Positions 1 through 9,453 of a stretch of DNA of 36,669 nucleotides are shown in pieces. The DNA comes from [Mycobacterium] crassicus (GTDB taxonomy: Bacteria; Actinomycetota; Actinomycetes; Mycobacteriales; Mycobacteriaceae): assembly GCF_020181615.1 (NCBI RefSeq), contig NZ_CP084029.1, forward strand, positions 4,550,500 to 4,587,168. Direction: 5' to 3'. Under the pieces are notes generated by a model that saw only the letters and a list, made by a program, of their open reading frames with translations, had not been told where the DNA came from and did not search any database. The translations under genes were made by a program, and so were the position numbers. Position 1 is the first letter of the stretch. Each line of letters opens with the position of its first letter.

Positions 1-349
1 CTTCAGAGCCGTCGGTGCCATCACCGATCAGATACTGCCCGGCCGAGGTGTTGATCCAGCCGTTGACCATCGCCCCGAAGTCACTGTTGATCCACGTCTC
101 CATCGAGGTATGGATCGGATCGTAGAACCACTGGTCGAGCATGGTGGTCCAGTCGAAGGCGCCCACGTCGGCCGGCCCGGCAGCCAGCCACATCGAGGAG
201 TCGAAAAGATCGGTGAGCCAATCGAATCCATCGGCCTGCGCCGCGGGTGGGGTGGTCAGTGGGGCGATGCCGAATGCCAGGAATGCGCCGACGGCGCTGG
301 CGGCGCCGACTGCCCGGGAGTGGCGGCGCGTAGTGGTGTGATGACTCAT
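1..349 (-). CDS. PE-less PGRS-type secreted protein, N-terminal part (runs off left end)
   Basis: This is the N-terminal 116 codons of a protein whose remainder lies outside the window. It starts at ATG 349 (MSHHTTTRRHSRAV), with an AGAGAGG ribosome site about 10 nt upstream. Residues 1-39 form a signal peptide: an Arg-rich start, a hydrophobic core and a likely cleavage after AAQA. The region after it (FDWLTDLFDSS, then FDWTTMLDQWFYDP) is nearly identical to the start of the complete PGRS protein at 2907-5408. It ends in GQYLIGDGTDG, the segment that precedes the Gly-rich repeats in that protein. The start lies 49 nt after the stop of the GjpA-like gene upstream, the same gap as in the second cassette, so the two are probably one operon. 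The PGRS repeats themselves are inferred from the paralogue because they are not in view. Function unknown; probably surface-exposed. Confidence 0.8.
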   Translation of the reverse strand, partial: MSHHTTTRRHSRAVGAASAVGAFLAFGIAPLTTPPAAQADGFDWLTDLFDSSMWLAAGPADVGAFDWTTMLDQWFYDPIHTSMETWINSDFGAMVNGWINTSAGQYLIGDGTDGSE

Positions 350-398
350 GTGCAGGGATACCTCTCTAAAAGGTTGGGGGATTGAGGGGTTTGGTGGG

Positions 399-1475
399 TC
401 AGAGTCCGAGCAGGTCGCCCAGCCAGCCGAAGGCGTCGGTCGCCGAGGCGCCGCCGTCATCGAGCAGGGGCAGCTCCGCGCCGGCCAGCGGCGGCGTCAC
501 CACCACCGGGCCCTTGCCGTCCCAACCCGACCCCAACAGCGCGCCCACGGTCTGGCCCCAGGCCTGCCACGCGGCGATCGGCCCGATCCCGGCACTGTTG
601 AGATCCAGGGTGCCCAGTACCGGGACGCCACTGAATTCGATTCCGACACTTTGGAAGATCGAGCCACCGACCGCGGGAACCGCGGCAGCAACCTCACCGC
701 CGGGACCAAGGACCTGGTACGGACCGACCGCCACCGCGCCCGGGGACAGCAGCCCACCGAAGGCGATGTCCAGGTGGTCCATGTTCATCCCGGCCGGGAA
801 GACCCCGAACCCGTTGATCATCGGCAACAGTGCGTCCAGATTCAGGGTGGCGCCGTTGAAGAAGGCCCCACCCATGTTGGTCAGGGTGTCGCCCAGGCTG
901 TCGTGGTCGGTGATGCTGTTCATCAACGCCACCCACGGGCTGATCGCCGGGCCGATCATGCCCATCAGGACCGCACTGGCCGGTGAGCCCAGGTAGTCGA
1001 TGATCGGCATGATCATCGCCTGGTCGACATCGGGCGGGATGTAACCGCCGATCTGACCGAACATCAGCTGATGGGTGCCATCCATGGTGTGGTTGAGCAC
1101 CGTGGAGTGGGTCGCGTCGGTCTCGTTCTGCAGCGCCCAGCCGGAGATCACCGCGTTCAGATGCAGCTGGACCTGCTCGTTGACGTCGTTGGTGCTGCCC
1201 GACGGGTCGTTGGCCAACTGGCCCCAATAATCCATCTGATTGGCCCAGAACTGCTGCATCCCCACCCCGGGCGCCAGATACCAGTTGTTCAACAGGCTGG
1301 TCATGTTCGCCGATGCGGCATTGAGCACGTCATCCCACGCACCGGTCAACGCCACCGCCGGGGACTGGACGTTAAGCAGGGCGGGCACCGGCGCAGACAC
1401 CGGCGTCACCGCGATCAAGCCGGCACCGGCGATTGCGACGCCAGCGGTGGCGTAGGGGCGAATGGTGGCTCGCAA
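399..1475 (-). CDS. GjpA-like exported protein (putative outer-membrane porin family), copy 1
   Basis: A 358-residue protein starting at TTG 1475, with AAGGAG 5 nt upstream. The N-terminus MRATIRPYATAGVAIAGAGL looks like an export signal; cleavage would fall near residues 28-35. I recognise the start (RPYATAGVA..GAGLIAVTP) as that of the mycobacterial/Gordonia family annotated as outer-membrane porin GjpA. Porin activity has been reported for the Gordonia founder and is only inferred here. The mature part is rich in Gly, Ala, Trp and Met and has no enzymatic motif that I can see. The C-terminus ends LDDGGASATDAFGWLGDLLGL, with an acidic patch before a hydrophobic end. The closest relative is the gene at 5458-6531, which is almost colinear (358 versus 357 residues). 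It is the first gene of a two-gene operon with the PGRS protein downstream. Confidence 0.72.
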   Translation of the reverse strand: MRATIRPYATAGVAIAGAGLIAVTPVSAPVPALLNVQSPAVALTGAWDDVLNAASANMTSLLNNWYLAPGVGMQQFWANQMDYWGQLANDPSGSTNDVNEQVQLHLNAVISGWALQNETDATHSTVLNHTMDGTHQLMFGQIGGYIPPDVDQAMIMPIIDYLGSPASAVLMGMIGPAISPWVALMNSITDHDSLGDTLTNMGGAFFNGATLNLDALLPMINGFGVFPAGMNMDHLDIAFGGLLSPGAVAVGPYQVLGPGGEVAAAVPAVGGSIFQSVGIEFSGVPVLGTLDLNSAGIGPIAAWQAWGQTVGALLGSGWDGKGPVVVTPPLAGAELPLLDDGGASATDAFGWLGDLLGL

Positions 1476-1548
1476 GAGAACTCCTTCGGGTATGTGATGC
1501 GCAACACGGCCTGGAAACGAAGCTGAGCCTAGCTGAGAGATGCATGTC

Positions 1549-1578
1549 TTGTATACATGAAAATAGAACTTGTTCTAA
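1549..1578 (-). promoter_or_regulatory. Cassette 1 promoter with GTATAC palindrome and KstR-type operator
   Basis: Read on the minus strand, a -10 TATACA (1555-1550) lies 17 bp from a -35-like TTAGAA (1578-1573). The -10 sits in the palindrome TGTATACA (1550-1557). The -35 and spacer are covered by TAGAACTTGTTCTA (1564-1577), 6-bp inverted arms with a 2-bp centre, an exact fit to TnnAACnnGTTnnA, the pattern known for the mycobacterial KstR repressor. The centres of the two palindromes are 17 bp apart, exactly as in cassette 2. The GTATAC core also suits a FadR-type GntR protein, and a GntR gene lies 650 bp away. Binding is inferred. Confidence 0.6.
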
Positions 1579-2202
1579 AATCCCTGAGTTCGCCCTTGTC
1601 GCCCTCAGCGCGGTCGTCCGTCTGCAGTGGGACAATCTCGCTCTACTGCCAGCCATCTACATAATAAGTGCAGGTAGAACGTCATATATTTTGCGTTGAG
1701 TAGACGTCGCGTCAGCTGGCGAATGCTATGGCCTTACCGGGTGCCACGCCAGCTTGTCTTCGAAAACATGTATATACGAAGCAAAATTATGGACGGTAAA
1801 AATGAAAGACAGTTCGGTATCGTAGAAAACAGACCATATCTCTCAGGTTAAGTTCATAAGCGCCACGTATGCCGGAGCGGCACCGCGGCACCGCGGCACC
1901 GCGGCAGCAGGGCGATCTGACTGCGGTCGAGGGCCCGTCAACCGAAGTTGCGACGGCCTCCAGCGCCAACGACGTTGGGCCGGTTACGGCGCGCCGCGAG
2001 CCCCTGGCAGGCCACGGAATCGGTAGCGTCGGCTGACGTTTTCACCTGGGAAAATCGCTACGATACTGTTCACGTAGAAAGTGCCGTCTCGTCAGGATGT
2101 GTGGTCTTGAGGGTTTTCATAATCCCGCGTGGCGCAGCAACTTTCGTTGATGCGACCCCGTTCCGTGCTGAGTTTCGCGAAAGTCCCAGGTGAGCCCACT
2201 CC
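1579..2202. other. Intergenic region between cassette 1 and gntR
   Basis: No convincing gene is seen in these 624 bp. The stretch is AT-richer than its surroundings in 1640-1860. It contains a short palindrome GTATATAC (1770-1777), loosely similar to the GTATAC sites of the cassette promoters, and an 8-bp tandem repeat at 1877-1908. The gntR promoter must lie here, but I cannot fix its -10/-35 with confidence. Short frames in this stretch lack ribosome sites and family resemblance. Confidence 0.5.
1877..1908. repeat. Four-unit 8-bp tandem repeat (GCGGCACC)
   Basis: Three exact units of GCGGCACC are followed by GCGGCAGC, in noncoding DNA about 300 bp upstream of gntR. Such short perfect arrays can vary in unit number by slippage. 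No function is evident. Confidence 0.85.
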
Positions 2203-2850
2203 ATGCCCAAGAAGTACGGAGTCAAAGAAAAAGACTTGGTCGTCAATCACATCGTCGATCTGATACTGGCCGGGGAGTTGCGCACCGGCGACCGCGTCAA
2301 CCGCGATGCGATCGCGGCGGTCCTGGGCGTCAGTCGGCTGCCGGTGCAGCAGGGAGTGGATCAACTCGAGCACGACGGCCTGTTGGTGAGCCGGTATCAC
2401 CGCGGTGTTTTTGTCGAGCGGTTCGACGAGGCGGCGGTGTTGGAGCAGCACGAGTTGCACGGGGTGTTGAACGGCATCGCGTCGGCGCGGGCGGCCACCA
2501 ACCCGACTCCCCGGGTGCTGGCCGAACTCGACTCGGCTTTGCGGACCCTGCGAGCCAGCAACGAGCCCGGGGCGTTTCAGGAGGCGGCCTACGCATACCG
2601 CCGCATCATTGTCGAGGAGTACGCCGGCCCCCAGCTGCAGGCGGCGATCGTCGCGGCACGGGTCTTCGCGCCACGTGGATTCTGGGGGAGCTACCCAAGG
2701 GGCAACGAGGAGTTCGGCCACACGTACGACGCGGAGACAGCTGCGATCCGCGGGGGTGATCCAGATGCCGCACGGGCAGCGAATCTGGAGCGCGCGGATC
2801 TGCGGGCGAAGGTGGTTGTCGCCGAGTTGATCCGGCGAGGCGTGCTGTAG
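2203..2850 (+). CDS. GntR-family transcriptional regulator (FadR/FCD-type)
   Basis: A 215-residue one-component regulator. Residues about 10-72 form a GntR winged helix-turn-helix: GELRTGDRVNRDAIAAVLGVS is the recognition region, LPVQQGVDQLEHDGLL the following helix and GVFV the wing strand. Residues about 78-215 are an all-helical FCD/VanR-like effector domain, with an EQHELHGVLNGIASARA helix and a Glu/Arg-rich end. Start ATG 2203 has AGGTGAG about 9 nt upstream. The gene lies between the two GjpA-like/PGRS cassettes: it diverges from cassette 1 and converges on the PGRS gene of cassette 2. FadR-subfamily proteins generally bind TnGT..ACnA palindromes, and TTTGTATACAAA at 6603-6614 fits. I infer that it controls both cassettes. 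The ligand is unknown, although such regulators often sense organic acids or acyl groups. Confidence 0.88.
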   Translation: MPKKYGVKEKDLVVNHIVDLILAGELRTGDRVNRDAIAAVLGVSRLPVQQGVDQLEHDGLLVSRYHRGVFVERFDEAAVLEQHELHGVLNGIASARAATNPTPRVLAELDSALRTLRASNEPGAFQEAAYAYRRIIVEEYAGPQLQAAIVAARVFAPRGFWGSYPRGNEEFGHTYDAETAAIRGGDPDAARAANLERADLRAKVVVAELIRRGVL

Positions 2851-2889
2851 CGACGGTCGCCGGGCCCTGCGGGGACCCGACGACCGTCG
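2851..2889. terminator. Bidirectional hairpin between convergent gntR and PGRS gene
   Basis: CGACGGTCG (2851-2859) pairs perfectly with CGACCGTCG (2881-2889). A further CGGG/CCCG pairing (2861-2864 with 2876-2879) lies inside. It starts directly after the gntR stop and lies 17 bp from the end of the convergent PGRS gene. There is no clear U-tract, as is usual for mycobacterial terminators. Confidence 0.75.
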
Positions 2890-2906
2890 CCGATCTTGCT
2901 GAGTTG

Positions 2907-5408
2907 TCAGCCGGGCTGGCCGGCGCCTCCGTCGGTGCCGGACTGCCCGTCGGGTGTGCCGGTGCCGCCGGTACCACCGGTGCCACCCGCGCCCGCGGCG
3001 CCGGCTGTTCCGGAGGTCCCGTTGGTGCCGCCGGTGCTGGTGCCGCCTGCGCCGCCGGCTGCTCCGTTTCCGCCGGTTCCGCCGTTGCCACCGTTACCGC
3101 CGGCCAAGGTGTTGCCGTCGGAATCGGTGCCGCCGGTGCCGCCGTTGTGGCCTGCGCCGCCGGCGCCGCCTGCGCCGCCTGCGCCGCCTGCGCCGCCGTC
3201 ACCGGAGACCGCGCTACCACCGGAACCGCCCTTACCGCCGTTTCCGGCGTCGCCGCCGTTGCCGCCGTTGCCGCCGGCAGCGTGCGGGGGGTTGGTGGCA
3301 GGCCCACCGGCGTAGCCTGCGCCTCCGCTGCCGCCGGCCCCGCCGTTTCCGCCGTTCACGGTGCCCTGCGCATTGCCGCCGGCGCCACCGTCCCCGCCGG
3401 TTCCGCCCGCGCCCATGGTGCCCATGCCTGCGGCGCCGCCGTTGCCGCCGTTGCCGGCGTGGCTGGCACCCTGGCCGTACGGGTTGTCGTTGGGCATGGC
3501 GACACCGCCGCTGTTCCCGCCTGCGCCACCGGCCCCGCCATTGCCGGCGGTGCCACCCGCACCACCGGTGACGGGGACCGCCGCGGTACCGCCTAGGCCG
3601 CCGTTGCCGCCGTTGCCGCCGGTTGCGGTGCCAGAGCCGCCGGCGCCGCCGGCGCCGCCGTCGCCGGCGGCAATCCCGCCGGAGGCACCACCGCCGTTGC
3701 CGCCGGCGCCGCCGTTTCCGCCGATGCTGACCACGCCGACACCGGTGGCGCCGTTGCCGCCGTTGCCGCCGGCGCCGCCCTGGCCGGCGGCAACGTCGGC
3801 GTTGCCGGCACCGCCGTTGCCGCCCTTGCCGCCGTCGCCACTGTGGCTGTAGGTGGTGCCGTTGTGTTGCCAGCCGGTGCTGGTGCCGCCGCCACCGCCG
3901 GTGCCGCCGTCACCACCGCGGTTGTTGGCGTTGCCGCCGGCGCCGCCGTTGCCGCCGGCGAAGGTGCCGTTGCCGCCGTTGCCGCCGTCGCCGCTGCCGC
4001 CGCTCCCAAAGGCTGAGCCGCCGGCACCGCCGTTTCCACCGAAGGTTTGGACGGTGGCGTCATCGGTGGCGCCGTTGCCGCCGTTGCCGCCGTTGCCGCT
4101 GGCGAGTCCGCCGCTGTAGGCGCGGCCACCGTTGCCGCCGTTACCCGCGTGTCCCGCGGTGGCGTCGCCGCCGTTGCCGCCGTCGCCGCCGCTACCGGGC
4201 AGGGTCCCGAAGATGGCGCGGCCGCCGTTGCCGCCGGTGCCGCCGTTGCCGCCGTTGAGGCCGGTGCCGCCGTTGCCGCCGTCGCCGCCTTGGCCACCAT
4301 CGCCGGCGGGCTGCACGTTGTTTCCACCGCCGTACCCGCCGGCGCCGCCGTTGCCGCCGTTGCCGAGGTAGTTGCCGTTGGCGTCTTGATAGGCGTTGCC
4401 GCCGTCTCCGCCGTCGTGGCCAGCACCGCCGACCCCGACCTGACCGGCCTGCCCGTAAGCCGGACTGGTGTAGATGGTGGAGCCGCGACCACCGGCGAGG
4501 CCGCCGTAACCGCTGTAGGCCTGCCCGGCGCCGTTGCCGCCGTTGCCGCCGTTGACGTGGTCAACAGTTCCCGTGGCACCGTTGCCGCCGGCCCCGTTGT
4601 TGCCGCCGGCCCCGCCGTTACCGCCGTTGCCGAACATGAAGCTGCTGCGTCCGCCGTTGCCGCCGTTGCCGCCGAGGCCGCCGTCGCCGCCGTCGCCGGT
4701 TCCGCCGTTGGCGTAGGTGCCGGCGGCACCGTCTACCCCAGCCGCGCCGATCCCGCCGTTGCCGCCGTTGCCGAAGAACCAGGCTGAGGCGTTGCCGCCG
4801 TTGCCGCCATTGCCGCCGGCGAGAGCGGTGTCGGTAGTCGCCCCGCCGTTTCCGCCGTTTCCGCCGTTGCCCATCCAGATGCCGCCGGCGCCGCCGTCGC
4901 CGCCGTGGGCGCCGGTGCCGCCGGTGCCACCTGCGCCGCCGTCGCCGAGCCAGCCGGCGGCGTTGCCGCCGTTGCCGCCGTCGACGCCGGCTTCGGTGCT
5001 GTTCCAGCCGTTGCCGCCGTCGCCGAACCAGAGGCCGCCGTTGCCGCCGTCGGGGTTGAGTGCGGTGCCGTCGGTGCCGTCGCCGATGAGGTATTGGCCT
5101 GCGGCGGTGTTGATCCAGCCGTTGACCAGTTCGCCGAAGTCACTGTCGATCCAGGCCTGCATGCTGGTGTGGATGGGGTCGTAGAACCACTGGTCGATCA
5201 TGGTGGTCCAGTCGAAGGCGCCGACTTCGGCCGGGCTGGCGGCCAGCCATGCCGATGAATCGAACAGATCAGTGATCCAGTCGAATTCGTCGGCTTGGGC
5301 GGACGGTGCGACGGTGAGCGGGGCCATTCCGAAGGCCAGGAATGCACCGACCGCACTGGCGGCGCCGACCGCCCGGTAGGTGCGTCGGGTGTTGGTGTGG
5401 TGACTCAT
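2907..5408 (-). CDS. PE-less PGRS-repeat secreted protein
   Basis: An 833-residue protein starting at ATG 5408 with AAAGAGGT upstream; in-frame codons further upstream would overlap the preceding gene. Residues 1-39 are a signal peptide with TRRTYRAV at the start (possibly Tat-compatible), a hydrophobic core and cleavage after APSAQA. Residues 40-103 are a conserved Trp/Asp-rich region. Residues 104-111, GQYLIGDG, and the following Asn/Asp-Gly segment resemble the GRPLIGNG linker found between the PE domain and the repeats of PE_PGRS proteins. From about residue 120 to the end it is GGNGG/GGAGG-type glycine repeat, the hallmark of PGRS regions. There is no PE domain, so ESX-5-type export is not expected. 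Calcium-binding and surface roles have been proposed for PGRS repeats; none can be shown here. It is the second gene of cassette 2, 49 nt after the GjpA-like gene. Confidence 0.88.
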   Translation of the reverse strand: MSHHTNTRRTYRAVGAASAVGAFLAFGMAPLTVAPSAQADEFDWITDLFDSSAWLAASPAEVGAFDWTTMIDQWFYDPIHTSMQAWIDSDFGELVNGWINTAAGQYLIGDGTDGTALNPDGGNGGLWFGDGGNGWNSTEAGVDGGNGGNAAGWLGDGGAGGTGGTGAHGGDGGAGGIWMGNGGNGGNGGATTDTALAGGNGGNGGNASAWFFGNGGNGGIGAAGVDGAAGTYANGGTGDGGDGGLGGNGGNGGRSSFMFGNGGNGGAGGNNGAGGNGATGTVDHVNGGNGGNGAGQAYSGYGGLAGGRGSTIYTSPAYGQAGQVGVGGAGHDGGDGGNAYQDANGNYLGNGGNGGAGGYGGGNNVQPAGDGGQGGDGGNGGTGLNGGNGGTGGNGGRAIFGTLPGSGGDGGNGGDATAGHAGNGGNGGRAYSGGLASGNGGNGGNGATDDATVQTFGGNGGAGGSAFGSGGSGDGGNGGNGTFAGGNGGAGGNANNRGGDGGTGGGGGTSTGWQHNGTTYSHSGDGGKGGNGGAGNADVAAGQGGAGGNGGNGATGVGVVSIGGNGGAGGNGGGASGGIAAGDGGAGGAGGSGTATGGNGGNGGLGGTAAVPVTGGAGGTAGNGGAGGAGGNSGGVAMPNDNPYGQGASHAGNGGNGGAAGMGTMGAGGTGGDGGAGGNAQGTVNGGNGGAGGSGGAGYAGGPATNPPHAAGGNGGNGGDAGNGGKGGSGGSAVSGDGGAGGAGGAGGAGGAGHNGGTGGTDSDGNTLAGGNGGNGGTGGNGAAGGAGGTSTGGTNGTSGTAGAAGAGGTGGTGGTGTPDGQSGTDGGAGQPG

Positions 5409-5457
5409 GTGCGGGGATACCTCTTTCAAAGAGTTGCGGGTAAAGGGCTTTGGGTGA

Positions 5458-6531
5458 TCAGAGGCCGAGGAGGTCGCCCAGCCAGCCGAACGCGTCGGTG
5501 GCTGATGCACCGCCGTCGTCGAGTAGGGGCAGTTCCGCGCCGGCCAGCGGCGGGGTCACCACGACGGCACCCTTGCCGTCCCAACCCGAGCCCAGCAGGG
5601 CGCCGACGGTTTGACCCCAGGCTTGCCAGGCGGCGATGGGTCCGATGGCGGCGCTGTTGAGGTCGAGGGTGCCCAACGCGGGAACCCCACTGAATTCGAT
5701 GCCCACGCTTTGGAAGATCGATCCGCCGACGGCGGGCACCTCGGCCGCGACTTCGCCACCGGGGCCGAGGACCTGGTACGTCATCCCGTTCGCGCCCGGG
5801 GATAGCAGCCCGGCGAATGCGAAGTCCAGGTGGTCCATGCTCATGCCGGCGGGGAAGTAGCCCGAGGAGTTGATCATCGGCAGCAGGGCACCTAGATCCA
5901 AGGTGGCGCCGTTGAAGAAGGCTCCGCCCATGTTGGCCAGGATGTCGAAGGGGTTGTCGCCGTCGGTGATGCCGTTCACCAGGGCGATCCACGGGCTGAT
6001 CATCGGCCCGATCGACGCCATGAACAGTGCGCTGGCCGGTGAGCCCAGGTAGTCGATGATCGGCATGATCATGTCCTTGTCCACATCCGGTGGGATGTAG
6101 CCGGCGACCTGGCCGAACATCAGCTGATGGGTGCTGTCCATGGTGTGGTTGAGGATGGTGGCACGGGTTTCGGCGGTGGCGTCCTGCAGCGCCCAGCCGG
6201 AGAGCACCGCGTTCAGGTGCAGCTGGATCTGCTCGTTGATCTCATTGGTGGAGCCGGACGGGTCGTTGAGTAGCCGATCGGCGTAGTCCATCTGGTTGGC
6301 CCAGAACTGCTGCATTCCGACCCCGGGGGCCAGGTACCAGTTGTTGAGCATCGTTGTGATGTTGGCCGAGGCGGCGTTGATGACGTCCTGGACCGCCCCG
6401 GTCAGCGCGACCGCGGGGGATTGGACCTCGGGCAGGGCGGGAAGCGGCGCGTCCAGCGGGGTGACCGCGACAAGACCGGCCCCGACGAGTGCCACACCGG
6501 CGGTGGCATAGGGGCGAAGCATGGCGTGCAA
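5458..6531 (-). CDS. GjpA-like exported protein (putative outer-membrane porin family), copy 2
   Basis: A 357-residue paralogue of 399-1475. The start is placed at TTG 6531, with AAGGAG 5 nt upstream, because this matches copy 1 exactly (MHAMLRPYATAGV versus MRATIRPYATAGV). The longer frame back to 6633 would run through the promoter. The N-terminus is an export signal (LRPYATAGVALVGAGLVAVTP). The body keeps the same blocks as copy 1: SANITTMLNNWYLAPGVGMQ, then NQMDYADRLLNDPSGSTNE, HTMDSTHQLMFGQ, IPPDVD, LSPGAN and LPLLDDGGASATDAFGWL. The family is the one annotated GjpA-type outer-membrane porin; channel activity here is inference. It is co-transcribed with the PGRS gene downstream and driven by the promoter at 6603-6633. 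Confidence 0.74.
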   Translation of the reverse strand: MHAMLRPYATAGVALVGAGLVAVTPLDAPLPALPEVQSPAVALTGAVQDVINAASANITTMLNNWYLAPGVGMQQFWANQMDYADRLLNDPSGSTNEINEQIQLHLNAVLSGWALQDATAETRATILNHTMDSTHQLMFGQVAGYIPPDVDKDMIMPIIDYLGSPASALFMASIGPMISPWIALVNGITDGDNPFDILANMGGAFFNGATLDLGALLPMINSSGYFPAGMSMDHLDFAFAGLLSPGANGMTYQVLGPGGEVAAEVPAVGGSIFQSVGIEFSGVPALGTLDLNSAAIGPIAAWQAWGQTVGALLGSGWDGKGAVVVTPPLAGAELPLLDDGGASATDAFGWLGDLLGL

Positions 6532-6602
6532 GGGGACTCCTTCAGGTATGTGATGCGCAGCACCGTGACGAACGAAGATGAGACTAGCTGAGAGACAGCT
6601 AG

Positions 6603-6633
6603 TTTGTATACAAATAACTAGAACATGTTTCAA
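6603..6633 (-). promoter_or_regulatory. Cassette 2 promoter with TTTGTATACAAA palindrome and KstR-type operator
   Basis: On the minus strand, TTGAAA (-35, 6633-6628), a 17-bp spacer and TATACA (-10, 6610-6605) form a good sigma-A promoter, giving a leader of about 65 nt to TTG 6531. The -10 sits in the perfect 12-bp palindrome TTTGTATACAAA (6603-6614). TAGAACATGTTTCA (6619-6632), matching TnnAACnnGTTnnA, covers the -35. The initially transcribed region holds CTAGCTG-AGAGA-CAGCTAG (6584-6602), a perfect 7-bp hairpin that is not conserved in cassette 1. Confidence 0.65.
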
Positions 6634-7000
6634 GAGTCCGAAATAATCTATGCGATGCCTGCCCCGCAGGCGTCTGGCGGCACCGCGTTTATCGCTACTG
6701 ATGGAAGCGAAATGCCTGGTATTACTCGGTAGTAACCAGCGGGGAAGCGCTTGAGTGGACGGCCGGGGCCACCGGTGGCGAGAGAGGACGATATATGCAT
6801 TAGATATAAAAATACTTGGTGAGAATGACCCGTGTTAGCTCGATCTGGATTCACTCTCACAGCTAGAGCCTCAGGATTAAGACAGATATTTGACGGGTTC
6901 GGGCAGGGTTCTCGGGCGGACCGGTATCGGTGCCGCAAACCTGTTTCATGTCGGGAGGTGAACAGCTAGCGTGATCGAGAGCCGGGGCGGAAGGAGGGGG
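6634..7000. other. Intergenic region between cassette 2 and the phosphotransferase gene
   Basis: No gene is recognised. The part around 6780-6890 is AT-rich compared with its surroundings. A weak -10-like TAGCGT (6967-6972) would start transcription near 6979, upstream of a strong AAGGAGG ribosome site at 6991-6997. I looked for the 19-bp rifampin-associated element (GGGGCTTGC...) known upstream of some actinobacterial rifampicin-inactivation genes and did not find it. Confidence 0.45.
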
Positions 7001-7039
7001 ATGTCTCGGGCGGATCGCATCTTCCAGCCAGGCGGATGA
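7001..7039 (+). CDS. 12-codon leader ORF, start-stop overlap with the phosphotransferase gene
   Basis: ATG 7001 is preceded by AAGGAGGGGG (6991-7000), the strongest ribosome site in this region. It opens a frame of 12 codons (MSRADRIFQPGG) whose TGA (7037-7039) overlaps the ATG of the next gene as ATGA (7036-7039). The downstream gene has only a weak ribosome site of its own, so its translation probably depends on ribosomes finishing this leader. The peptide matches no attenuation leader that I know. That it is translated is inference, resting on the site and the overlap. Confidence 0.55.
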   Translation: MSRADRIFQPGG

Positions 7040-9453
7040 GCACATCGTTCGTCAGGCCACTGGCCGATATTCGCGCGACAGACGTCGCATTCGGCGGTGG
7101 TAAGGCGGCCAATCTGGGGGAGTTGGTCGCTGCCGGGCTTGCTGTGCCCGATGCGTTTGTCATCGGTGTCCCGGCCTACGTGACCGCGGTGGCCGGGGGG
7201 CCGGTCGCGGACCCATCCGGTGACGTCCGTGACGCGATCGTCGCGCACTACCGGGCTATGGGCCACGACGTGGCGGTGGCGGTCCGTTCCTCGGCGGTGG
7301 CCGAGGACGGTGCCACCGCGTCCCACGCGGGGATCTTCGAGACGGTCCTCAACGTCCGGGGCGTCGCAGACCTGTTGGACGCGGTTCGACGCTGCTGGGC
7401 ATCGGCGACTTCGTCGCGAGCACGTCGATACGCCGGCGCCCGGGGATTGGAATCAGAAGACTCCGGCATCGCGGTGGTGGTCCAGCGTCAGATCGCCTCC
7501 GCCTGTTCGGGCGTCGTATTCACCGCCGACCCGCTGACCGGGCGCTCGGACCGGTTGGTCCTTGAGTGCGTACGGGGGTTGGGGGAGGCCGTCGTGGCCG
7601 GACTGGTCACACCGGACCGCATCGTGGTGGACAAACATTCATTGGACATCGTGGCCGTTGAGCGCGGCAACCAAGAATCGGCCCTTGAGAGCGACTCCAC
7701 CGCGACGGGTCTCGTGAGTCGGTCGCTGACGTCACGCGAGGGTGTGTGTCCGTCGTTGTCCGAGAGTCAGATCCGCGAGATCGCCCGGCACGCGTTGCGG
7801 ATCGAGCAGTGGTACGGCAGTCCGCAGGACATCGAGTGGGCTTTCGACGACCAGACACGATCCTGGATCCTGCAAACCCGCCCGATCACCGCCTTCGACA
7901 TGTTGGCCGCCCGCGCAGCCGCATTCGGTTTCTATGATCCGTCGCGCCCGACCGGAAGCCGTTGGACCCGCGCGAACATCGCCGAGGCGGTGCCCGGTGT
8001 GCCGACGCCGCTCACCTGGTCGGTGTGGAGCACCGGACTCAACGACGGCCACCGACAATCCCAGATTCAGCTCGGTGTGGTGGCCAAGGGTGACCACCGG
8101 CGCGTACCTGTCGTCAGTCTTGTCCGGGGCTGGCCGGCTCTGTCGGTGGATCTGCTGGTGAGTCAGATCGCTCAGGTACCCGGGATGGATGCGAGTGCGT
8201 TCAGTGAGCAGTTCTTCGGGGAGGCAGAACATGTGGCGCCGGCACCGGCACGGGTCCGCATCGCGACCGCGCTGCGGATGGCGACCCGTGCGCCGATCAA
8301 TCTTGCTCTGCTGCAACGGCGCCTGCGCGCGGTGAGCGCTGCCTCGCGGCAGGCGTGGCAGCGCGACGCCTGGCGGCCGGTCACCGATCCGGTGGCCCTG
8401 GTGGTCGAGGCCGCGCAACGGTTCGGCGAGACCATGGTCGTGCACTCGATGCAGACCAACGTGTGTCAAAACCTCTACCAGGCCGTCGAACGCGTTGCCG
8501 GCGGCCGGGCGATAGACCTGGTCTCCGCAGACGGCGACCTGCCCGAAGCGCACCTGGCCACCGAACTCTGGCTGCTGGCCCACGGTCGGATCCCGCTGGA
8601 ACCATTCCTTCGCCGACACGGCTTTCACGGACCCGACGAGGGGGAACTCGCCGCGCCGTCCTGGCGGCAGAACCCTGAGCCGGTGCTGCGGGCAGCGAGT
8701 GGAATGGCTGGTCGCGGTGATTCGTGTGATCCCCGTGCGGCATTGGACAAGCGGCGCGCGGAGCGGCGCGAGGCGGAGATACGACTGGGCGCCTCCGTGC
8801 CGCGTTCGCGCCGACGGATCGCCGTACAGCTGATCGCCATGGCCCGCCGAGCGGTCGTCGGGCGCGAGATCGGCAAAGTGGCATTCCTGCAAGACCTCGA
8901 CGTCATCCGCCATGCGATCTCGTTCCTGGGCGATGACGCGGTCTGGCGCACGCTCGACGAACTCAAGTCGAAGGTGACTCCCACCGCGACTGATGTCGTT
9001 GCACGCCAACGAGTCCGGTCGGAGTTCGCCGCCCAGGAGCCACCGCTGTCGATCGTCGAAGGCCGGGTAGCGCCGGAATCTGTTGGTGATCAAGGACCGG
9101 AGCCGATGATCGCCGGTATCGCAGCCAGCCCGGGCCGTGCGCGTGGGCGGGCGCGGGTGGTGACGAGTCCCGTCGCCAATGCCGTCCTCGGCGCCGGCGA
9201 TGTGCTGATCGCCCGCACCACCGACCCGTCGTGGGTGACGACGTTCATGACGGTGGCCGGAATGGTGCTCGATGTGGGTGCCACCATGTCGCACGCCGCG
9301 ATCATCGCGCGAGAACTGGGGATCCCCTGTGTGATCGGGACGGGCAACGGCACCCGGGCGATCCCGGACGGTGCGCTGGTGGAGATCGACGGATCGGAGG
9401 GGGCCGTGCGGATCCTCGAGCTGCCGGCTACCGATCGATCCGGAAACGCTTGA
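7036..9453 (+). CDS. Rifampicin-phosphotransferase-like PEP-synthase-family enzyme
   Basis: An 805-residue protein with the order ATP-grasp domain, substrate domain, swivelling phosphohistidine domain. Residues about 8-290 are the PPDK/PEP-synthase nucleotide-binding domain: GGGKAANLGEL (20-30), AVRSSAVAEDG (82-92), and DIEWAFD..SWILQTRPIT (265-285). Residues 312-700 start with RANIAEAVPGVPTPLTW, as in rifampicin phosphotransferases, and carry RRHGFHGPDEGEL. The C-terminal domain holds GATMSHAAIIARELGIP with the phospho-acceptor His753. The TIM-barrel PEP-binding domain of true PEP synthase is absent, and this supports a dikinase-type transfer of the ATP beta-phosphate to a small molecule. 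The substrate is unproven; rifamycins are one possibility. It starts at ATG 7036, coupled to the leader ORF. The 3' end overlaps the convergent DUF167 gene by 26 bp. Confidence 0.78.
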   Translation: MSTSFVRPLADIRATDVAFGGGKAANLGELVAAGLAVPDAFVIGVPAYVTAVAGGPVADPSGDVRDAIVAHYRAMGHDVAVAVRSSAVAEDGATASHAGIFETVLNVRGVADLLDAVRRCWASATSSRARRYAGARGLESEDSGIAVVVQRQIASACSGVVFTADPLTGRSDRLVLECVRGLGEAVVAGLVTPDRIVVDKHSLDIVAVERGNQESALESDSTATGLVSRSLTSREGVCPSLSESQIREIARHALRIEQWYGSPQDIEWAFDDQTRSWILQTRPITAFDMLAARAAAFGFYDPSRPTGSRWTRANIAEAVPGVPTPLTWSVWSTGLNDGHRQSQIQLGVVAKGDHRRVPVVSLVRGWPALSVDLLVSQIAQVPGMDASAFSEQFFGEAEHVAPAPARVRIATALRMATRAPINLALLQRRLRAVSAASRQAWQRDAWRPVTDPVALVVEAAQRFGETMVVHSMQTNVCQNLYQAVERVAGGRAIDLVSADGDLPEAHLATELWLLAHGRIPLEPFLRRHGFHGPDEGELAAPSWRQNPEPVLRAASGMAGRGDSCDPRAALDKRRAERREAEIRLGASVPRSRRRIAVQLIAMARRAVVGREIGKVAFLQDLDVIRHAISFLGDDAVWRTLDELKSKVTPTATDVVARQRVRSEFAAQEPPLSIVEGRVAPESVGDQGPEPMIAGIAASPGRARGRARVVTSPVANAVLGAGDVLIARTTDPSWVTTFMTVAGMVLDVGATMSHAAIIARELGIPCVIGTGNGTRAIPDGALVEIDGSEGAVRILELPATDRSGNA

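Follow-up and report, generated by a model that had tools for sequence, protein, structure and literature searches.

Most discussion of PGRS proteins has concerned those of pathogenic mycobacteria, which carry a PE head and are exported by ESX-5. Two-gene units whose products act as a pair, and which have been multiplied by duplication, are known from the PE/PPE pairs of ESX systems; in two-partner secretion (TpsB/TpsA), one operon encodes an envelope protein together with a large exported protein made of repeats; and regulators of the FadR subfamily usually have catabolic targets. PMC9436101 presents the PGRS domain as a PGII-sandwich "sail" with a helical linker and a GRPLI motif. A 2025 review gives 0 pe_pgrs for two Mycolicibacter species in its gene counts (PMC12209268), its table 1 lists 12 pe and 0 pe_pgrs for Mycolicibacter terrae, and section 7 of PMC11939664 treats M. 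smegmatis PGRS proteins with doubtful PE starts. Here we describe a window (the whole stretch of DNA analysed, 36,669 nucleotides, C1:4550500-4587168 of the 4.87-Mb genome of [Mycobacterium] crassicus) that carries two copies of a cassette in which a gene for a GjpA-type exported protein is followed by a gene for a PGRS protein without a PE domain. The GjpA-PGRS pair is genuine, recurs widely among Mycolicibacter-type genomes and has stayed together, and joint action at the mycomembrane is most likely the reason for the pairing.

The GjpA model NF033942 passed its cut-off in 113/396 genomes of the genus, and 100 regions were fetched from among the GjpA places listed, in addition to the loci of the window's own genome. 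The resulting gene set covered 52 genomes (own, 50 others of the genus and one of another genus) and 154 GjpA frames, 6 of which were omitted from the tree for low score or shortness. The remaining 148 rows represent 147 genes because one G322 gene was counted twice through overlapping fetched stretches. In this tree every PGRS-linked GjpA fell into a single clade, class A, which comprises 72 genes from 17 Mycolicibacter-type genomes (for some genomes, we infer this label from the clade) and leaves 75 genes outside it. A signal-peptide PGRS gene lay directly downstream in 67/72 class A genes, and a PGRS-type glycine-rich frame lay directly upstream in three more; the signal-peptide N-terminus was found in two of these, and the third, whose N-terminus falls outside the fetched stretch, is represented by its glycine-rich part only. 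The remaining two genes were cut by a fetch edge or lay 40 nt from a contig end, so that a PGRS-type neighbour was present in 70/70 class A genes with readable flanks. None of the 75 GjpA genes outside class A had a PGRS gene as the next gene downstream, with at least 665 nt of readable downstream flank in all 75; four of them (five rows) had PGRS within 3 kb, being members of the same clusters. The pair was also found at 15/15 named loci of close GjpA relatives (14 Mycolicibacter, one filed as Mycobacterium sp.), which overlap genomes already counted and were not added to the totals. Recurring in the gene set, its tree and the named loci, the arrangement is not due to chance. These counts cover the fetched GjpA places; G227, with two further GjpA-PGRS neighbours readable from coordinates, stands outside them.

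The spacer between the two genes, measured to the nearest ATG, ranged from 46 to 100 nt (an ATG was found in 66/67 pairs), and all 67 PGRS partners carried the motif G-x-x-LIG[ND]G, with GRPLI in none. Distances among GjpA proteins correlated with distances among the N-termini of their PGRS partners (r=0.682), against r=0.055 +/- 0.038 when partners were shuffled within genomes, and none of 2000 shuffles reached the observed value. In a tree of PGRS N-termini, whose 21 unpaired members were drawn from the 30 best loci of the own genome, 65 paired rows and two unpaired ones fell on one side and three paired rows outside. This shows that GjpA and PGRS are inherited as a unit, which is not proof of contact. 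Since the two occur together in every checkable copy, one joint job at the cell surface is suggested.

An initial annotation of this DNA had read strict pairing as a sign of joint action at the cell surface. Strictness holds for class A, where partners are also co-inherited, and fails for the families as wholes, which usually occur apart: to the PGRS-free downstream positions of the other GjpA genes can be added the 68 PGRS N-terminus matches listed in the own genome, which reduce to 54 distinct frames (some covering the linker part only), 7 of them adjoining GjpA. The pairing is thus the property of one subfamily. The N-terminus was matched at 1e-10 in 21/148 genomes drawn from the genus, nine of which, the own included, had 14 to 32 matches with up to 32 candidates scored per genome, and twelve had one to four. 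One of the nine rich genomes, G214, has GjpA genes, none of them class A; the PGRS family is therefore wider than the pairing.

We found PGRS to be separated from PE throughout the own genome. Of its 16 PE matches none shared a frame with any of its 46 PGRS matches, the nearest lying 2.8 kb away, and the two window cassettes and their surroundings contained no PE match. A match to the signal-peptide PGRS N-terminus lay within 900 nt of 41/46 PGRS matches; the five PGRS matches without one at that distance are at C1:1085439, 1087664, 3635542, 4266687 and 673895.

The features of the two cassettes and the gene between them are as follows.

2..349, minus strand: N-terminal part of PGRS protein copy 1, with its signal-peptide-like start and its linker, truncated at the window edge; an open reading frame (ORF) whose N-terminus is 82% identical to copy 2
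350..398, minus strand: intergenic gap of copy 1, 49 nt, from ORF coordinates
399..1475, minus strand: GjpA-type exported protein copy 1, 358 aa, TTG start; NF033942 436.9 bits (cut-off 100), with an AlphaFold2 (AF2) model
1548..1559, minus strand: operator-like palindrome of copy 1, degenerate, 9/12 to TTTGTATACAAA, from alignments and score
1566..1575, minus strand: second conserved promoter palindrome of copy 1, GAAC..GTTC type, from alignments
2203..2850, plus strand: GntR-family regulator with an FCD domain, between the cassettes; PF00392 39.5 bits, PF07729 32.7 bits
2907..5408, minus strand: PGRS protein copy 2, complete, 833 aa, with a signal-peptide-like start instead of PE; PF21526 50.8 bits, with an AF2 model
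5409..5457, minus strand: intergenic gap of copy 2, 49 nt, from ORF coordinates
5458..6531, minus strand: GjpA-type exported protein copy 2, 357 aa, TTG start; NF033942 400 bits
6603..6614, no strand assigned: perfect palindrome TTTGTATACAAA, predicted GntR/FCD operator; sole exact copy in the 4.87-Mb genome, kept in relatives
6621..6631, minus strand: second conserved promoter palindrome of copy 2, from alignments

The duplicated same-strand layout described initially, with TTG starts, AAGGAG 5 nt upstream of the TTG in both GjpA genes and 49-nt gaps, agrees with the coordinates of both copies, and the GjpA and PGRS identities proposed for the two products agree with profile matches. Both GjpA proteins cover the NF033942 profile from 1 to 331 of 331, far above the curated cut-off, and the copy 2 PGRS protein matched the Pfam PGRS family PF21526 (cut-off 27) and did not match the PE domain PF00934; the truncated copy 1 piece, which starts with ATG at 349(-), gave no match in the Pfam scan. 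Read by eye, the copy 2 PGRS protein begins with a basic stretch, a hydrophobic core and an AQA/DE cut site. Three details needed amendment: the 391-aa ORF ending at 6633 is too long, the GjpA start being 6531; the promoter palindromes called the same are present in both copies and differ in that copy 2 has the perfect TTTGTATACAAA and copy 1 the 9/12 version; and the two-gene cassette, correct as far as it went, left out the GntR/FCD regulator between the copies and the FadR-type palindrome.

The window is one assembly contig, because assembly gaps abut both ends: a 10-N gap left of base 1, inside the PGRS gene, and a 100-N gap at the right end (36669). Reading leftwards for the rest of copy 1, as had been proposed, crosses the 10-N gap, beyond which copy 1 PGRS coding resumes in a different frame, with one more PGRS gene after it. 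A GjpA-PGRS-PGRS order, with a second PGRS N-terminus after the paired one, is seen in the own genome at C1:4546088-4548517 and, from coordinates, at G210:C1:4595897 and G271:C143:15120. The own genome has two cassette clusters, the second of which (C1:3704703-3746708, L010-L012) contains fatty-acyl-AMP-ligase-type genes as well as five class A GjpA genes with a partner and one GjpA gene without.

Regulation of the window cassettes can be proposed from the gene between them. Both domains of the GntR/FCD protein score above their cut-offs (27 for PF00392, 24.3 for PF07729), and the GntR gene is conserved alongside the cassette, on the strand opposite to it, in six other genomes. There it neighbours prcA, and wherever the other flank of the cassette was read, a PEP-utilising enzyme was found on it. 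The palindrome TTTGTATACAAA, present as an exact copy upstream of copy 2 only, recurs at the same place upstream of GjpA in those genomes, with one change in one of them, and fits the TKGT/ACMA operator consensus that PMC4494728 gives for the FadR subfamily. A site of at least 9/12 was found in 8/9 cassettes with a linked GntR gene versus 0/63 without (Fisher 7.5e-10; the rows are related). Judging from these sequences, the pair is probably regulated, and GntR may act on it through the palindrome.

In relatives the cassettes lie between prcB-prcA-GntR and the PEP-utilising enzyme. This enzyme, conserved beside the cassette, occupies window positions 7036-9453 and has PPDK_N and PEP-utilizers domains; the NCBIfam models that come nearest to it describe prodigiosin-type ligases, whose cut-offs it does not reach. 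The prcBA side in the own genome (L013, C1:2136000-2150000) lies 2.4 Mb from window positions 1-9453 and leads into a stretch of PGRS and then a gap of 100 N, reflecting either a rearrangement in which PGRS genes took part or a misjoined scaffold.

Predicted structures were obtained for both products. The GjpA model (pLDDT 85, pTM 0.78) has helices over residues 45-207 and a beta part over 209-292; no solved relative or known fold was found for it, and no Pfam family matched up to E 0.1. As the GjpA model is helix-rich and of no known fold, the term "porin" stays unproven. The copy 2 PGRS model (pLDDT 74.9 overall, mean 87 over residues 111-690) is an extended glycine-rich fold with almost no standard secondary structure, preceded by low-confidence helices at 67-87 and 90-102 before GQYLIGDG. 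Its best solved match in Foldseek was a polyproline-II-bundle antifreeze protein (E 1.5e-6), with a TM-score of just 0.30 on the target and an rmsd of 17. As a prediction, the PGRS model agrees with the published PGII-sandwich sail without proving it.

On balance we lean towards an operon of two genes, under the control of GntR, whose products are envelope proteins that act together. Both proteins would be exported by the general secretion (Sec) route rather than through ESX/PE, and from their signal sequences and the published PGRS model we infer that both are located at the cell surface. PGRS would sit in the mycomembrane as a "sail", and GjpA, a helix-rich acidic envelope protein with relatives encoded next to a fatty-acyl-AMP ligase, would work with it in the same mycomembrane process, its most likely role being to place, anchor or stabilise PGRS. 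GntR would repress the operon as long as a small ligand is absent. Several observations count against this proposal. The pairs share one origin, so the 70 cases are not independent; signal peptides were assigned by eye; confidence is low in the PGRS model for its N-terminal linker (pLDDT about 43-59); and co-variation of GntR and operator along the tree offers 2 well-supported independent contrasts only and is not significant. A resemblance between the GjpA C-tail and the PGRS N-terminus, considered as a mark of contact, was rejected as not specific to class A.

With all pairs derived from a single ancestor, the chief rival is still passive linkage: a cassette of single origin, multiplied in blocks through recombination between PGRS repeats, could share regulation without any mutual action of its products. 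The single clade formed by class A and the two cassette clusters in the own genome suit such a history, and block co-inheritance would predict r=0.68 equally well. Yet PGRS genes mostly stand alone (only 7/54 frames beside GjpA) and no readable class A GjpA lacks a partner, the pairing has been kept while spacers diverged, and PGRS remains adjacent to GjpA even in the three class A cases where gene order has changed; we regard passive linkage as possible but unlikely.

A second alternative starts from the relatives of class A. A FAAL-type (fatty-acyl-AMP-ligase-type) relative, searched with such a gene of the own genome, lay within 600 nt of GjpA in 13/14 genes of the sister clade (L164, L166-L170, L172-L176, L178, L198), one of them in another genus, the 14th being on a short contig, and in 11/61 other genes outside class A (12/62 rows) and 7/72 class A genes. 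With the ligase beside GjpA in the sister clade, the older link of the GjpA family may be lipid activation. GjpA could then primarily be part of a lipid pathway with the ligase as its older partner, and PGRS a later carrier, mask or anchor of a lipid-linked surface product. This is doubtful for the pair, as a ligase of this kind is missing from the 600 nt around the window cassettes and around most class A genes, and "FAAL-type" is an approximate label because the two ligases scanned score below NCBIfam cut-offs. The idea that GjpA is a diffusion channel gated or shielded by an exposed PGRS partner draws on the NCBIfam name "outer membrane porin GjpA", and is improbable given a mostly helical model with little beta structure, nothing convincing among solved channels to match it, and no publication describing the GjpA family found among titles and abstract openings. 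Helical channels do exist in mycolata, so the fold of the model speaks neither for nor against a channel.

An operon for two jointly acting envelope proteins also permits a bolder proposal, which we offer with considerable reserve: class A GjpA might be a partner dedicated to exporting PGRS sails to the mycomembrane or inserting them there, derived from a lipid-linked, FAAL-associated ancestor, giving a Sec-plus-GjpA display route that is independent of PE/PPE-ESX-5 and switched by a metabolite that GntR senses. If true, PGRS display by Sec plus GjpA in Mycolicibacter would run parallel to the ESX-5 route that the tubercle bacillus and related species use. To our knowledge, it is still an open question how proteins arrive at the mycomembrane independently of ESX, and the locked partner gene provides a direct handle on this question. 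A Mycolicibacter-type genome with a large PE-less PGRS repertoire, one branch of which is locked to a partner gene and partly to a regulator, separates the role of the PGRS domain from PE/ESX-5 export and makes PGRS surface display testable in a non-tuberculous species.

The GjpA-PGRS envelope pair is apparently undescribed so far, as the initial annotation had supposed: no publication on it was found among the papers listed in a literature search, by titles and abstract openings. Measured against the GjpA family NF033942, class A proteins match over the full length and far above the cut-off, and differ from other GjpA in forming a separate clade, in their length of 349-415 aa from the model start, in standing beside a PGRS-type gene and in lacking the long tail present in the eight relatives compared. 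Like TpsB/TpsA, the pair joins an envelope protein to a large repetitive exported protein; unlike TpsB, GjpA has no Pfam match (E 0.1), hence no sign of an Omp85-type partner, and its model is helix-rich without a beta-barrel. The window regulator resembles local regulators of the FadR subfamily in its GntR helix-turn-helix and FCD domains, its linked operon and a GTATAC-centred palindrome matching TKGT/ACMA (PMC4494728), and differs in that its linked genes encode envelope proteins. With the PE/PPE pairs, GjpA-PGRS shares the two-gene unit multiplied by duplication, although GjpA and PGRS are unrelated to PE and PPE and have signal-peptide-like starts, with no PE match at the window cassettes. 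Closest of all are the PE_PGRS proteins of Mycobacterium, which have the same PGRS repeats (PF21526), GRPLI where window-type PGRS have G-x-x-L-I-G, and, in the published PGII-sandwich model (PMC9436101), a comparable succession of helices (of low confidence in our model) and extended glycine-rich fold; window-type PGRS differ from them in a signal-peptide-like start in place of the PE domain, in a genome where PE matches and PGRS occupy separate frames.

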